Assembly (NCBI GenBank): GCA_946887065.1 | Contig: CAMPKL010000033.1 | Location: 1 to 13,665, forward strand | DNA length: 13,665 nt | Source: an uncultured Bryobacterales bacterium | GTDB lineage: Bacteria; Acidobacteriota; Terriglobia; Bryobacterales; UBA6623 | Direction: 5' to 3' | Shown here: positions 4,014 to 10,194 of the stretch, one piece after another | How the letters are laid out: each line of letters opens with the position of its first letter | Position numbering within the stretch: position 1 is the first letter of the stretch | Notes under the pieces: model-generated | Told to the model about the DNA's origin: nothing | Database searches by the model: none | Seen by the model: only the letters and a program-made list of their open reading frames with translations | Translations under genes and position numbers: made by a program

Positions 4014-6260
4014 GTGTCGAAAGAACTTGTAGTCTCTTCAACGCCTCACGAAACCCGCGTTGCCATCGTCGAAGACGACCGGCTCAGCGAAATCTATGTC
4101 GAGCGGGCGACTGAGCACGCTATCGCCGGCGGTATCTATAAAGGCCGCGTCAACCGGGTGCTGCCCGGTATGCAGTCCGCTTTCGTCAAGATCGGATTGG
4201 AGCGCGACGCTTTCCTTTACGTCACTGACATCGTCGACGAAACCGAGCAGTTAGAGAGCGGCGAACGCGATGACGTCGACGAGATCCTTCTCGATCCAAA
4301 GGTGCCGCCCGCCGAGAAAGCCGCTTCGGAGCCGCCCAGCGCCGACGACCAGGAGCCGGAGGCAGACTCAGCGGACGGCGATGGACGCAGCCGTCGCGGA
4401 CGGCGCTCCAGGCGCCGCAAAGGTCGGAGCGCCTCAGGCCTTCCCGATGCCAAGTTCGCCGAGTTGGATAAGGAACCTGCCGACGAATCGACGGATGAGG
4501 CGAAGAACGGCGACTCTTTTCTGGAGGGCTTTGAGCTGCTGCCCGGCGAATCCCTCGCTAAGTACGAGTCCGCCCGAATCCAAGGGGTTGAGGAAGAAGA
4601 CGAAGAAGCCGTCGGCTGGCTGCAAGAGCGGCTGGAAGAAGCCGATTCGGACGACGCGACTCCCGGCGCCGCATCAGAAGAAGAGGACGAGGAAGACGAA
4701 GCAGACGCCCTGGAATCGTCCGACGACGACGAAACCGAGGATCCATTCGGAGCGGATTCCGCTTCTGTGAATAGGGCGGAGCCGAGTGAGGATGACGACT
4801 CGGAAGCCAAGGAAAGCGACCAATCGGAGTCAGAAGATTCCGCGGCACAAGACGTGGCCATGCCGCCCTCGACAGAAGCGGCCGTGCGCGATCGAGGCGA
4901 CGCCCAGCCCTTGCGCAGGGGCCGCAGAGGCCGCCGTCGTCGGGGCAAGGGCGGACGACCACGCGAGGAAGAGACCGAGCAAGCGGCCGTTGAATCGGCT
5001 CCCAAGCCGGCGCCCGCCCCAAGGGAGGAACCGAAGCCGGAAGTCGAAGACTCGGGCATCCGCATCTCCGACCTGTTGAAGCCAGGTCAAGAAATCATCG
5101 TCCAGGTCGCCAAAGAACCGCTCGGCAAGAAGGGCGCCCGCATCACATCGCACGTGGCGCTGCCGGGGCGCTTCGTTGTTTACATGCCCACGGTGGCGCA
5201 CACCGGAATCTCCCGCAAAATTGGGTCCGAAGCCGAGCGCAATCGACTGCGGCGAATCATCAAGGAGAATAGCGAAGGCTTTCCCGGCGGCTTTATCGTC
5301 CGCACCGCGGGTCAGGGCGCCGAGGAAGCGGATCTGATCGCGGATGTGACCTTCCTGGCGAATCTGTGGAAGGGCATCAAGGAAAAGGCCGAGAAGCGTC
5401 CCGCTCCGGCTCTGCTTCACGCCGATCTCGATATCGTCGAACGCATCCTGCGTGACCACCTCGGCCAAGGCTACAAGACGATCTGGGTGGACTCCGAGGA
5501 CGAGTACGAACGCGTCGTCCGCTTCGTCGAACGCTTCCAACCCGACCTACTGGATCGCGTTAAGCTCTACACTCGCGACACGCCGATTTTCGACAAGTTC
5601 AACATTACGCAAGAGTTGGAGAAGGCGCTCAAGCCGAAAGTCTGGCTCAAGTCAGGCGGATATCTGGTCATCAACCAGACCGAAGCGCTGGTCGCCATCG
5701 ACGTCAATACCGGGAAATACGTCGGCAAGTCGGACAGGCTAGAAGATACGATCGTCAAAACTAATTTGGAGGCCGCCGACGAGGTCGTCCGCCAGATGCG
5801 TCTTCGCGACCTCGGCGGAATTATCGTCGTCGATTTCATCGACATGGACGACCGGGCAAACCGCAAGAAGGTCGCCCTGGCCCTGGAATCGGCGATGCGA
5901 ATGGACCGCGCTCCCTCGAAGACGCTTGCCTTCAACGACTTTGGCCTCGTCGCGATCACCCGTAAGCGCGTGAAGCAGTCGCTGGAGCGGGCGCTATGTT
6001 CCCCCTGCCCTGCCTGCCAGGGCTCGGGTCACGTTCAGAGCGTCCCCACGGTGATCTATAACTTGCTCGGCGAGGCGCGCCGCATCGGCAAGAGAAAGAA
6101 TCCGGAACGGGGCGTCGTCTTACGCTGCAACCCGGATGTCGCCAAGGAACTGAAGTCGCGCTCCAACTCCTATCTACAAGAATTGGAGGAGTTCATGGGC
6201 GCGAGCGTCATCGTCAAGAGCGACGTCACGCTGGCTCGCGAAAACTTCGATATCGACTAG
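4014..6260 (+). CDS. rng: Ribonuclease E/G with an S1 domain split by a long disordered insert
   Basis: This 748-residue endoribonuclease processes rRNA and mRNA. The N-terminal S1 strands lie at about 35-75 (IYKGRVNRVLPGMQSAFVKIG), and the S1 domain resumes at about 350-385 (LLKPGQEIIVQV, GKKGARITS). Between them, at about 76-345, is an insert of Glu/Asp/Ser runs with two Arg-rich tracts (125-138 and 301-317). The catalytic core is standard: the metal-binding aspartates are D563 in AIDVNTG and D607 in VVDFIDMDD, aligning with D303 and D346 of E. coli RNase E. The zinc-link cysteines are C665-P-A-C668, with an extra C662. The protein ends soon after the core and lacks an RNase E-type C-terminal scaffold, so it is G-like in layout. 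The GTG start is fixed by the GGAGGT at 4003. It ends on a CTAG shared with ftcD. Confidence 0.93.
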   Translation: MSKELVVSSTPHETRVAIVEDDRLSEIYVERATEHAIAGGIYKGRVNRVLPGMQSAFVKIGLERDAFLYVTDIVDETEQLESGERDDVDEILLDPKVPPAEKAASEPPSADDQEPEADSADGDGRSRRGRRSRRRKGRSASGLPDAKFAELDKEPADESTDEAKNGDSFLEGFELLPGESLAKYESARIQGVEEEDEEAVGWLQERLEEADSDDATPGAASEEEDEEDEADALESSDDDETEDPFGADSASVNRAEPSEDDDSEAKESDQSESEDSAAQDVAMPPSTEAAVRDRGDAQPLRRGRRGRRRRGKGGRPREEETEQAAVESAPKPAPAPREEPKPEVEDSGIRISDLLKPGQEIIVQVAKEPLGKKGARITSHVALPGRFVVYMPTVAHTGISRKIGSEAERNRLRRIIKENSEGFPGGFIVRTAGQGAEEADLIADVTFLANLWKGIKEKAEKRPAPALLHADLDIVERILRDHLGQGYKTIWVDSEDEYERVVRFVERFQPDLLDRVKLYTRDTPIFDKFNITQELEKALKPKVWLKSGGYLVINQTEALVAIDVNTGKYVGKSDRLEDTIVKTNLEAADEVVRQMRLRDLGGIIVVDFIDMDDRANRKKVALALESAMRMDRAPSKTLAFNDFGLVAITRKRVKQSLERALCSPCPACQGSGHVQSVPTVIYNLLGEARRIGKRKNPERGVVLRCNPDVAKELKSRSNSYLQELEEFMGASVIVKSDVTLARENFDID

Positions 6261-7168
6261 CTCAGCACGACGCCGAGTTCTTCCTCGATTCGATTCTCAA
6301 GAATCATCGAGGAATTGAATCCGCGTATCCTGAGGCCCTCGCCGCCGTCTTGGCCGAGGGCTTTGCGCGGGATGAGGCCAATCAACTCCGAGTCGACCAC
6401 GGTCACGCCCTCGGCCGCGGCAAGCTCATCAATCCAGTCGAGAACGGTCCGCAGCCCGGTCCGTTCATAGTCGACCAGATTCATCGAGACCTGGGTCGTG
6501 CCGCGGGTCGGCAATGCCAGTCCAAGCGCCTTTACGGCGGGCAATCCGCCTGAAGACTCGCGAATCATTCTCGCTATGCGCCTGGCCGGTTGAACATCCG
6601 CGGTGGCTAGTTCAACGTTCCAAGCAATCAGCGGCTTGCGAACGCCCACCGCTGTGGCGCCTGCCGTGGGGTGAACCCGGGGGCCTCCCACGTCCGGCAG
6701 CCGTGAACCGTCGCCCTGCACTAATGCCTCAAACTCGCCCAGCCTGACGTCCTCCAGTCGCTCCCGCCCGGGTGTCATTGCCGCTAGGCCGTAGAAAAAC
6801 GACGGAACTCCAAGCTCTGCCCACAGCCGCTGTGCAAATTGCCGAGCTGCTTGGATGGCTTGCTCGGCAGTCATATCGCCCATCGGCACAAAAGGGGCCA
6901 CATCGAGCGCGCCCATGCGCGGATGTTTGCCCTTATGCGCACGGAGATCGACGCGCGCCACGGCCAGCTTAGCGATCTCAAACAGCGCCTCGGGAACCGC
7001 GTCCGGCGCGCCGGCAATCGTGAACACCGAACGATGATGATCCGGGTCCGCACTGGAGTCCAAAAGTGCAACTCCTTGTACACAGCTCACCGCTTCTTGG
7101 ACATCTCTTAGAAAGGCGGGGTCGCGTCCCTCGGAGCAATTCGGCACGCATTCTAGGATCGAAGCCAT
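6257..7168 (-). CDS. ftcD: Glutamate formimidoyltransferase (formiminotransferase domain only)
   Basis: This enzyme moves the formimino group from N-formiminoglutamate, the histidine-degradation intermediate, to tetrahydrofolate and releases glutamate. The 303 residues begin with the family's typical N-terminus (ILECVPNCSEGRD). They continue with DPDHHRSVFTIAG (41-53) and KGKHPRMGALDV (79-90), where H82 matches the catalytic histidine of the mammalian enzyme. HPTAGATAVGVR and the C-terminal lobe (about 180-300) follow. No cyclodeaminase domain is fused, unlike the mammalian bifunctional protein, so that step must be encoded elsewhere. I chose ATG at 7168 rather than the longer frame from 7258, because the family homology starts exactly there and the extra 30 residues overlap the upstream gene. 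The gene starts 2 nt after the HutI-like stop, indicating one transcript. The family usually has Phe where C11 is. Confidence 0.93.
   Translation of the reverse strand: MASILECVPNCSEGRDPAFLRDVQEAVSCVQGVALLDSSADPDHHRSVFTIAGAPDAVPEALFEIAKLAVARVDLRAHKGKHPRMGALDVAPFVPMGDMTAEQAIQAARQFAQRLWAELGVPSFFYGLAAMTPGRERLEDVRLGEFEALVQGDGSRLPDVGGPRVHPTAGATAVGVRKPLIAWNVELATADVQPARRIARMIRESSGGLPAVKALGLALPTRGTTQVSMNLVDYERTGLRTVLDWIDELAAAEGVTVVDSELIGLIPRKALGQDGGEGLRIRGFNSSMILENRIEEELGVVLS
6281..6314. repeat. Inverted repeat (stem-loop) just beyond the rng stop
   Basis: TTCCTCGAT (6281-6289) pairs with ATCGAGGAA (6306-6314). Inside it GATTC (6292-6296) pairs with GAATC (6301-6305) around a TCAA loop. This gives 14 bp with a single 2-nt bulge (TC, 6290-6291). 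It begins 20 nt after the rng stop and lies within the last codons of ftcD. It could end or protect the 3' end of rng mRNA. No strong T tract follows. Confidence 0.55.
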
Positions 7169-7170
7169 TT

Positions 7171-8394
7171 CTAAGCTTGTCTCGAGGCGGTCGGAGCCGC
7201 GGGCGGCGCGGTGGCGCCGCGATAGATGATCTTCCCCTGCCGAATTGTCATGGCGCAAAGGTTGAAGCCGAAATAGTAAGGTATCAGGCGATAGTCGGGC
7301 ACGCTAAAAACCGCCAAGTCGGCGCGTTTCCCCGGTTCGATGGAGCCGATCGTTTGCTGGCGGGCCATCGCCGCCGCCGCATTGAGCGTACACGCCGTGA
7401 TCGCCTCTTCCGCCGTAAGCGCCATATTGCGGCACGCCAGCGTCATCATCATTGGGAGGCTCAACGACGAACACGAATCCGGGCCAAACGCCGTCGCCAA
7501 GCAAACTGCGCCGTCGTGGTCGATCAGCCCCCGGCCCGGCGCATACTCTGCCCGCATGCTGTAAGACAGACCCGGCAGCAAGGTTGCAATGGTCTCCAAG
7601 GACCCGAGGAGCGCAACGCTCTCACGGTCCACGCGTCCGGCGATATCCACGCTAAGAGCCGCAACTTCCTTTGCTAGCGCGCCGATCGACCGTGGCGGCG
7701 CGGCGCCCGTCAGCAACTTGACCCGCAGACCGGCCGATCGCGCGGTTGTTGCCAGTTGCTTGGCCTTTTGGCTCCGCAAGCCTCCTGCGCCGCAAGGAAG
7801 CTCACACGCGTAGACGGCGGCGACGCGGGCCGCCCAGCCCACAACGCCGCGAAAAACCTCCGCTTCGCCGCCGCCGTCACACAGCCCAGCCGAGACGGCG
7901 CCTCCCGCGTCGATCGGATTGCCCGTCAGGAGCGAGACCGTTCGTAGTTCCCGCTGGGCGCATTCGGGCCGGCCTTCGGCACGAATCTCCACTGTGGTTG
8001 TCCCACAGGAGGCCATTTCGTAGGTCCACTGGCGCGCGGCCGCCAGCAGCGAGCGCGGGGATCGAGACGGCGCTGCCGGGCGTTTCCCTTGGAGCCTCCG
8101 TCCACTGTGCCCGCCAAGAAACGCCGTCCAGTCTTCGGTGAGTTCGAAGAATGGCCTGCTGTGCGAGTCAATCAGGCCAGGCAAAACTACTTTGCCGGTT
8201 GCGTCGATGACCCGTGCGTGACGAGCGATTCCCAGATTCTCCAGTCGCCTGGACGGCCCGACTTCCACGATGAGTTCCCCGTCGATCAGCACCGCTCCAT
8301 CGGCGATCACCGCCAGGTCGGACATCCCTGGGCCACGCCTCGGGCACGCCCCGCGCATCGTTACAACTTGCTGAGCGCCGCGAATCAACAGCAT
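7171..8394 (-). CDS. Imidazolonepropionase (HutI)-family amidohydrolase, probably catalytically inactive
   Basis: This 407-residue protein is about the length of HutI, which hydrolyses imidazolone-5-propionate to formiminoglutamate. Family features include the N-terminal PRRGPGMSDLAVIADGAVLI (19-38), VLPGLIDSH (70-78), GTTTVEI (131-137), GLRVKL (222-227), the YAP..LIDHDG region (284-295), LTAEEAITACTLNAAAA (326-342), and SIEPGKRADLAVF and PDYR..PYYFGFN near the C-terminus. The expected metal and catalytic positions are changed. HxH is H78-S-R80, HADE is L228-T-G-A231, the ADH histidine is I251, and the TDFNPGS aspartate is A302. Some substrate loops are also missing. There is no frameshift or internal stop. 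ATG at 8394 is the most upstream possible start, with an in-frame TGA 30 nt earlier and no clear Shine-Dalgarno. It is followed 2 nt later by ftcD. It could be a pseudoenzyme partner or have a new metal-free role. Confidence 0.82.
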   Translation of the reverse strand: MLLIRGAQQVVTMRGACPRRGPGMSDLAVIADGAVLIDGELIVEVGPSRRLENLGIARHARVIDATGKVVLPGLIDSHSRPFFELTEDWTAFLGGHSGRRLQGKRPAAPSRSPRSLLAAARQWTYEMASCGTTTVEIRAEGRPECAQRELRTVSLLTGNPIDAGGAVSAGLCDGGGEAEVFRGVVGWAARVAAVYACELPCGAGGLRSQKAKQLATTARSAGLRVKLLTGAAPPRSIGALAKEVAALSVDIAGRVDRESVALLGSLETIATLLPGLSYSMRAEYAPGRGLIDHDGAVCLATAFGPDSCSSLSLPMMMTLACRNMALTAEEAITACTLNAAAAMARQQTIGSIEPGKRADLAVFSVPDYRLIPYYFGFNLCAMTIRQGKIIYRGATAPPAAPTASRQA

Positions 8395-8580: not shown

Positions 8581-10194
8581 TTGACTCAAGACTGGTCACC
8601 GCCGCCCGGTTTTAACCTAATGAAGCGGCGCCGCCAGGCGCCCGTTAAAAGTTTCATGAGAATCCCGTCTTCGGCACGGTCGGCTGGGATCACCATTGTT
8701 GCGTACGGCTATGCCGCCTACGCCGCGTATCTCGCATTCTCGCCGGGCAGCCTGCCTATCGGCTACCGCTACCTCGTGCTGTTGGTAGCCTGTTTGGTCT
8801 TGCTGGCGGCCCACGGACTGCGGCTGATCCGGCGCAGCCAGATTCAGCGTCTGTTCAAGAATCGCCAAACGCTGGAGAGCCCGCCGGCGGAAGCAGTCAT
8901 GGCAGCCTGGGAGATCCTTTTCGGTTGGCTCGGCGTCACCTGCGCACTCGTGTTCCTTTATTACGCCGCTCCGGCCGAACAGTTGGAGGTTTGGTATCCG
9001 CGGCTCTTCCTGTGTCTGTCGGTTCTCTTCGTCGCCGCGTTTCGGCGGGCGCTCATCTTCCTGGCGACGTTGCTGCCATTCGTTTTCACGATTACCCTAC
9101 TCGCGCTCTGGCAAGACTTGCAGGCTGGGGCTCCTGGCGAGGCCGTCGTCAAAGTAGCCTTCCTGCTGCTCGACGGGGCGCTGCTTGGATGGGCGGCTAA
9201 GATTGCCCGGGCCGGGGGCGTTTTCTCCAACAGCGAGTTTGAGATGCCCGTTGGCCCCGGCCGTCTAGGGGAATTCCTCTCCGGCTTTGTTCGAACCCAA
9301 TGCACGCACTTCCCGTCCAACGGCTACTCGTTGGATCTCACCTGCGTGCGGCACAGCAAGGGCGATTCGCGACGCTCGACGGGGGAAGTCCTGCATCACT
9401 ACCGCAAGGTCGTCCGCGGAGACATGCCCGGCGCGCGCTACAACGGTTGTTCGGTACCCATCGAGTTCGCCATCCCGGCTGATGCCGCTCCAACCTCCGC
9501 CTCGGAGAACGCTCGGATCACCTGGACTCTCCGCGCTTCGGCGGACCTCTCCGATTCCGCCTTTTCCGCAAGCTTCGAAGTCCCCATCGAAGAAGCGCCG
9601 CCCTACGCCCTGCGTTCGGCCCGGGAGCGGATCGAAGGCGGCCTGGGGGCTGATCCGCCCGACGCGGTGCCCATAGGCGACTTCCGCGATGGTGCGGTGA
9701 TTTTCACGAGCGGCAGCGACTGGAACGCATCCGGAGAACTGCTGACCGCCTCCTACTTCTGTATGTGGTGCCAGCTCGTCTGGTTGGCCACGGTCCAAGC
9801 TCTCGGCTGGCCATCGATCCTGATGTTCGTCGTCGGACTCGTTTTCTTGGCAGGGCTTCTGTGGCCGTTAGGAATTAGCGTGATAACAGAACTCCGCGAC
9901 GGCGTGCTCCGCGCAAGTCGCCGGGAACTCTGGGCATCCCGCGTCGATACCGTTGCCGGTCCGCTCATGCAAGGCGTCACGGTTCGTTCCGCGGGTCTGC
10001 GTCCCGGATTGATCGATGCTCAGCCCTATTACGACGTCGTCATTGAGACTGAGGCGGGCCGACGGCTGATCGCCGGGACGCAGTTCCGGGAGCGGCGCGG
10101 CGCCCAAGCCGTGGCCATGGAACTGCAGTGCATCACCGAAGAGCAGACCCAAACCGCCGGCGAACGACTCGCGTACGAGTTCCAGGGCATCTAG
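8581..10194 (+). CDS. Multi-pass membrane protein with a beta-rich central domain, function unknown
   Basis: I cannot assign this 537-residue protein a function. Six hydrophobic segments lie at about 35-54, 62-83, 108-130, 139-155, 156-177 and 187-208. A soluble domain (about 210-390) follows, rich in alternating beta-like strands. Its block SVPIEFAIPADAAPTS...ITWTLRASADLSDSAFSASFEVPI (291-336) resembles an arrestin-like beta-sandwich, though this is my impression and not a proven match. Two more segments come at about 393-408 and 411-435. A C-terminal region (436-515) has strand-rich, PH-domain-like periodicity (VITELRDGVLRASRRELWA, YYDVVIETEAGRRL). The start is uncertain. TTG at 8581 has GAGGGG only 1 nt upstream, which is too close, and ATG at 8620 (residue 14) or 8656 (residue 26) are alternatives. 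It is a single gene, divergent from the HutI-like unit, and ends on a CTAG shared with the molybdopterin-subunit gene. Confidence 0.8.
   Translation: MTQDWSPPPGFNLMKRRRQAPVKSFMRIPSSARSAGITIVAYGYAAYAAYLAFSPGSLPIGYRYLVLLVACLVLLAAHGLRLIRRSQIQRLFKNRQTLESPPAEAVMAAWEILFGWLGVTCALVFLYYAAPAEQLEVWYPRLFLCLSVLFVAAFRRALIFLATLLPFVFTITLLALWQDLQAGAPGEAVVKVAFLLLDGALLGWAAKIARAGGVFSNSEFEMPVGPGRLGEFLSGFVRTQCTHFPSNGYSLDLTCVRHSKGDSRRSTGEVLHHYRKVVRGDMPGARYNGCSVPIEFAIPADAAPTSASENARITWTLRASADLSDSAFSASFEVPIEEAPPYALRSARERIEGGLGADPPDAVPIGDFRDGAVIFTSGSDWNASGELLTASYFCMWCQLVWLATVQALGWPSILMFVVGLVFLAGLLWPLGISVITELRDGVLRASRRELWASRVDTVAGPLMQGVTVRSAGLRPGLIDAQPYYDVVIETEAGRRLIAGTQFRERRGAQAVAMELQCITEEQTQTAGERLAYEFQGI

Follow-up and report, generated by a model that had tools for sequence, protein, structure and literature searches.

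The window analysed here, the whole 13,665-nucleotide stretch of contig CAMPKL010000033.1 from an uncultured Bryobacterales bacterium, carries on its reverse strand a gene for a 407-residue protein with the fold of the imidazolonepropionase HutI (7171..8394), separated from the ATG of the following ftcD gene (6257..7168, same strand) by a gap of only two bases (7169..7170). The FtcD product comprises 303 amino acids from the ATG and formiminotransferase domains only; it scores 293.8 bits against TIGR02024 (cut-off 221.25), retains in an alignment with 1qd1 the HPRMGALD stretch, which we take to hold the catalytic histidine, and no cyclodeaminase domain was found in it. The tight coupling to an apparently functional ftcD pointed out in an earlier note made from the sequence alone is thus borne out. 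The HutI-like protein itself belongs to the amidohydrolase superfamily (56.5 bits against Pfam PF01979, gathering score 25; 59.7 bits against PF07969, gathering score 29.7) and its model shows a full barrel, in agreement with the HutI fold. It can be divided into an N-terminal sandwich part (residues 1-76, 8167..8394 of the reverse strand), which is the best conserved region among degenerate copies, a TIM-barrel part (residues 77-312, 7459..8166, reverse strand), the former carrier of the metal site, and a C-terminal part with the GSIEPGKRADL and DYRxIPYYFGFN motifs (residues 313-392, 7219..7458, reverse strand), which is kept in degenerate copies. It differs from genuine HutI (TIGR01224; Bacillus subtilis 2bb0/2g3f) in having lost four of the five metal and catalytic positions (HxH, His, His, Asp), only H78 being retained next to the substitutions H80R, H228L, H251I and D302A, and its TIGR01224 score of 168.2 bits lies below the curated cut-off of 298.15. 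Both the HutI landmarks and the loss of these four positions had been recognized in the earlier note.

The same altered site is shared by close relatives. A homologue search in which 7999 candidates were scored found 1441, and among the best 120 of these the 14 homologues P0003-P0016 (379-407 aa, near full length, 72-78% identity) all carry R, L, I/V/L and A, respectively, in place of the four lost residues; the earlier note had held that a lack of such orthologues would point to decay. In additional groups, of about 36-55% identity, the sets of lost ligands overlap, and P0031, a Bryobacterales-named record, falls in the tree into the same 20-row clade composed entirely of degenerate proteins. 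Four of the degenerate proteins (P0003, P0013, P0014 and P0015) are named imidazolonepropionase in the public source, a name contradicted by the lost metal site.

Loss of the HutI-like metal site is a pattern of the whole order to which the kin of the window belong (the order of genome G256, 257 genomes). The five positions were read in 149 loci from 128 genomes, namely the matches listed (about E 2e-36 or better, more having been found) and one weaker copy, L140; the match in G006 was taken from L007, and the split gene of G476 (L093/L119) stands outside these counts. Because only listed matches were used, the more diverged copies are under-represented, and 40 further ftcD loci were inspected to probe this. 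Intact loci number 63 of the 149, and in the other 86 at least one metal ligand is missing; five ligands are retained in 63 loci, four in 33, three in 13, two in 7, one in 19 and none in 14. Urocanase is present in the genome for 62 intact loci and absent for one, against 32 and 54 degenerate loci, respectively. Counted by genome, it was detected in 60 of the 61 that hold an intact copy, vs 14 of the 67 for which none is listed (Fisher p 2e-21, from counts that are not independent owing to shared descent); a weak match in G426 and a fragment in G463 were scored as absent and partial matches in G448 and G458 as present, an intact HutI outside the matches listed may be present in some of these 14, and absences can be assembly gaps, as genome completeness is not given. 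Both an intact and a degenerate copy occur in 19 genomes, for instance in G157, where the intact copy is close to hutU and the degenerate one adjoins a short ftcD. Outside the order, all eight ftcD-linked loci are intact (L082-L084, L086, L087, L089, L091, L092), in a sample biased by being drawn from the best matches; the matches listed by a contig scan with general amidohydrolase patterns were outgroups, with no close kin among them.

The gene is under purifying selection. The nearest genome within the order is G476, whose locus is syntenic with the window from xdh to mreD, and in a YN00 comparison with it the HutI-like gene shows dN/dS of 0.172 for residues 1-170 and 0.245 for residues 197-407 (171-196 left out), values far below 1 that give no sign of decay. 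The corresponding values for other genes are 0.174 for ftcD, 0.138 for rng, 0.126 for rodA, 0.084 for PBP2, 0.079 for a 537-aa open reading frame (ORF) and 0.027 for xdhA, with dS of about 0.4-1.0 in these comparisons. Among degenerate copies of other genomes, 25 pairs (60-97% identity, dS 0.05-2, with sequences recurring across several pairs) gave dN/dS of 0.016-0.278 (median 0.162), and seven intact pairs gave 0.061-0.187 (median 0.087).

This constraint has moved away from the barrel. For the N-terminal, barrel and C-terminal parts defined above, mean pairwise identity is 0.593, 0.604 and 0.611 in 27 intact copies beside ftcD, and 0.625, 0.294 and 0.52 in 48 degenerate copies beside ftcD with at most three ligands. 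Barrel identity is graded, from 0.604 with five ligands through 0.394 with four and likewise with two to three, down to 0.26 with one or none, although misaligned drifting barrels could depress these values somewhat; in orphan copies (those without ftcD seen alongside) with four ligands it is 0.501. FtcD identity in the same groups is 0.535 in the most degenerate and 0.705 in the intact, so divergence is greater among the degenerate rows, and even so their N-terminal part is conserved at least as well (0.617 in the most degenerate vs 0.593 in the intact). Conserved N-terminal positions include R5, A7, R20, G33, G46, R49, R50, E52 and L54, and near-invariant residues of the protein include R20, G33, G46 and N338. 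R5, A7, R20 and R50 are common in copies beside ftcD, whether intact or degenerate, and rare in intact copies that have no ftcD seen alongside, a contrast that phylogeny may explain, because the latter are largely one clade.

The drift of the barrel bears on the idea that the protein is a repurposed enzyme, catalysing a metal-free reaction or using another metal site. The full barrel of the model would suit such an enzyme, as would Cys201 and Cys308, retained in 15/15 rows of the close clade. However, only four histidines remain in the window protein (59, 78, 96 and 293), and Cys308, the best cysteine candidate, is present in 1/4 and 0/13 rows of the next two groups (Cys201 is retained more widely). 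A complete alternative metal site, which the earlier note named as fatal to the pseudoenzyme idea, thus did not appear by inspection of the residues, and we rejected this candidate. The metal-free reaction that the note listed among possible selected roles is also unlikely in the barrel, because it is this part that drifts and has in places been deleted, with its conservation declining over the order. We therefore consider a repurposed enzyme improbable.

The coupling to ftcD recurs across the order: ftcD lies just downstream in 60 of the 86 degenerate loci, at a median distance of -4 in 59 of them, so that a homologue with a probably dead active site, as judged from its residues, is encoded together with its transferase. 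In the mini forms found in some species the middle of the barrel is gone and ftcD still adjoins. Such spacing would be expected if the sole function of the frame were to deliver ribosomes to ftcD through translational coupling, as would the two-base gap in the window, but this explains neither the low dN/dS nor the near-invariant residues named above, and as the sole reason for retention it is very improbable. A candidate gene fusion (L231:710-3175), in which FtcD and HutI share one 822-aa frame, was rejected as proof of partnership; its middle looks out of frame, and the locus is probably no fusion but contains a disrupted cyclodeaminase region.

FtcD architecture follows the state of its neighbour. 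Among the 87 loci with ftcD alongside, a long FtcD (bifunctional size, at least 400 aa) stands beside 25 of 27 intact copies, the two exceptions being one FtcD truncated where the contig ends and one whose frame is broken, and a short FtcD beside 57 of 60 degenerate copies, the other three (L106, L143, L194) having a long one. In a hand-picked set of 40 genomes (30 lacking urocanase, namely G476 plus 29 from the 54 such genomes in the table, and 10 drawn from the 74 that have it), the cyclodeaminase (PF04961) was found in 0/30 and 10/10, respectively, and HutH scored over the cut-off in 1/30 (5/30 at any score) and 10/10. Urocanase, HutH and cyclodeaminase were not found in G476, the nearest kin, whose completeness is not given. 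With no cyclodeaminase and an incomplete formimino route, FtcD arguably does something else in those genomes. 5-FCL (PF01812) exceeds the cut-off in just one of the 257 genomes of the order (two at any score), as compared with 11 of 14 controls, and FtcD does so in 235 (242 at any score); throughout the order FtcD has apparently taken the place of 5-FCL. Formiminotransferases are reported to replace 5-FCL, and an Acidobacterium gene to complement an E. coli mutant (PMC3223725). An order that has FtcD and lacks 5-FCL therefore probably relies on FtcD to dispose of 5-formyl-tetrahydrofolate. An N-formylglutamate amidohydrolase (PF05013), which could dispose of the product formed when the formyl group passes to glutamate, was found in only 4/40 of the hand-picked genomes, G476, G256, G479 and G368.

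Loss of the site, purifying selection, the move of constraint to both ends, the coupling of the genes and the lack of 5-FCL and Hut enzymes in the kin are established here. The window protein is very probably a selected non-hydrolase. With modest confidence we propose that it is a pseudoenzyme derived from HutI and retained for its ends, most likely as a partner of an FtcD that clears 5-formyl-tetrahydrofolate. Histidine degradation would have been lost in this lineage, and FtcD would have been retained because, where 5-FCL is missing, it probably removes 5-formyl-tetrahydrofolate by passing the formyl group to glutamate. The HutI-like protein, devoid of the catalytic metal site and of several conserved active-site residues, would then have been kept for its β-sandwich N-terminal part and C-terminal face, serving as a stoichiometric subunit, assembly factor or allosteric partner translated just ahead of FtcD, whose assembly, stability or regulation it would aid upon binding. 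That FtcD is the partner, presumably a physical one, is only slightly better than an even proposition. The selected role suggested in the earlier note is strengthened by recurrence across the order and by the shift of constraint off the barrel, and its FtcD-partner form appears to be the best fit.

Several findings weigh against this reading. In 26 of the 86 degenerate loci no ftcD is seen alongside, 20 of these being HHHHN copies, and no HutI-like gene or remnant was found in 19 of the 40 further ftcD loci. FtcD can therefore do without the HutI-like protein, and these loci together with the orphans tell against an obligate role. Orphan degenerate copies also keep the N-terminal motif, including most of R5, A7, R20 and R50, which is therefore no proof of FtcD binding. 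The link between loss of metal ligands and loss of urocanase, strong in the raw counts, comes down to 5 supported independent pairs, about 3.3 concordant and 0 discordant (sign test on supported pairs, median p 0.25), and a 178-row FastTree tree, in which some long branches meet, has at least 8 state changes, 5 of them on well supported branches. The dN/dS of degenerate pairs is about twice that of intact pairs, so constraint has been relaxed as well as moved, being strong yet somewhat looser than on intact copies. Finally, in G476 an 11-base gap disrupts the frame and splits the HutI-like gene, with ftcD still open; the gap may be real or an assembly error, and it sits in a stretch where relatives also vary in length.

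The persistent HHHHN copies, the FtcD loci that manage alone and the N-terminal motif of the orphans would all agree with a selected non-catalytic protein, such as a ligand sensor or a scaffold for another protein, whose partner is other than FtcD, the gene order with ftcD being inherited from an old hut operon. Against this, most degenerate copies, and the mini forms, stay coupled to ftcD, and drift of the barrel argues against a conserved ligand pocket there; we regard such a role as rather unlikely. In the orphan HHHHN loci (L139, L173, L191 and others) only the metal Asp is changed, to Asn, and in three loci that were read the orphan copy adjoins an S4/pseudouridine-synthase-like ORF, so labelled by the look of the sequence.

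Slow decay with the frame still unbroken, the alternative raised in the earlier note, could account for the looser constraint, for the broken frame of G476, for barrels that shrink in some lineages and for the absence of the gene at some ftcD loci; the frame that the note described as intact is indeed unbroken in the window, although not in this nearest genome. Yet decay is expected to be uniform, and the N-terminal part remains as conserved as in intact copies despite greater divergence. We therefore rejected decay on dN/dS and regional constraint, and, given also the changes shared by orthologues, consider it highly unlikely.

The best precedent is the ATCase of P. aeruginosa, whose pseudo-dihydroorotase chain, an inactive amidohydrolase relative beside a transferase, is described in PMC7053772 as inactive yet necessary for activity; a fungal pseudo-dihydroorotase is described there as devoid of zinc ligands and substrate residues. 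That system involves another enzyme family and another transferase, and its complex has been demonstrated, whereas a HutI-FtcD complex is predicted; the mini forms have additionally lost part of the barrel. The COG3643 formiminotransferase system resembles ours in having FtcD without 5-FCL and differs in that no HutI-like partner is mentioned in the part of PMC3223725 covered, where imidazolonepropionase is not a word of the main text. Pseudoenzymes beside a transferase are thus already known, and we did not find the HutI-like family, its graded series or its barrel-reduced forms described; no earlier report of a degenerate HutI beside FtcD was recognized in a literature search that missed most subscription papers.

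Of the other genes in the window, the 537-aa ORF on the forward strand (8581..10194) adjoins the HutI-like gene/ftcD pair also in G476 and G256; it had no NCBIfam match and no Pfam match above the cut-off, looks membrane-anchored and, with dN/dS of about 0.08, is a neighbour whose membership in the pair is putative. In a Rne/Rng ribonuclease (4014-6260, forward strand), the N-terminus is separated by a long acidic and serine-rich stretch from the catalytic part, whose best match starts at about residue 340.

For the order as a whole we tentatively suggest, as a little short of an even proposition, that HutI has come to serve a housekeeping FtcD, itself the substitute for 5-FCL, as a structural or allosteric subunit, the HutI barrel being dismantled stepwise while the sandwich interface was frozen, and that the intact HutI-FtcD pairs of hut operons also form complexes. 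The metal ligands would have gone first, then substrate residues and then middle units of the barrel, with living species at each stage. This would provide, in one order of soil bacteria, a graded natural series from an enzyme to a barrel-reduced scaffold whose transferase neighbour is known. A HutI-FtcD complex is predicted, and proteins now named imidazolonepropionase are identified as unlikely to be so. If true, a further amidohydrolase relative would serve a transferase without catalysis, beside the pseudo-dihydroorotase of ATCase.
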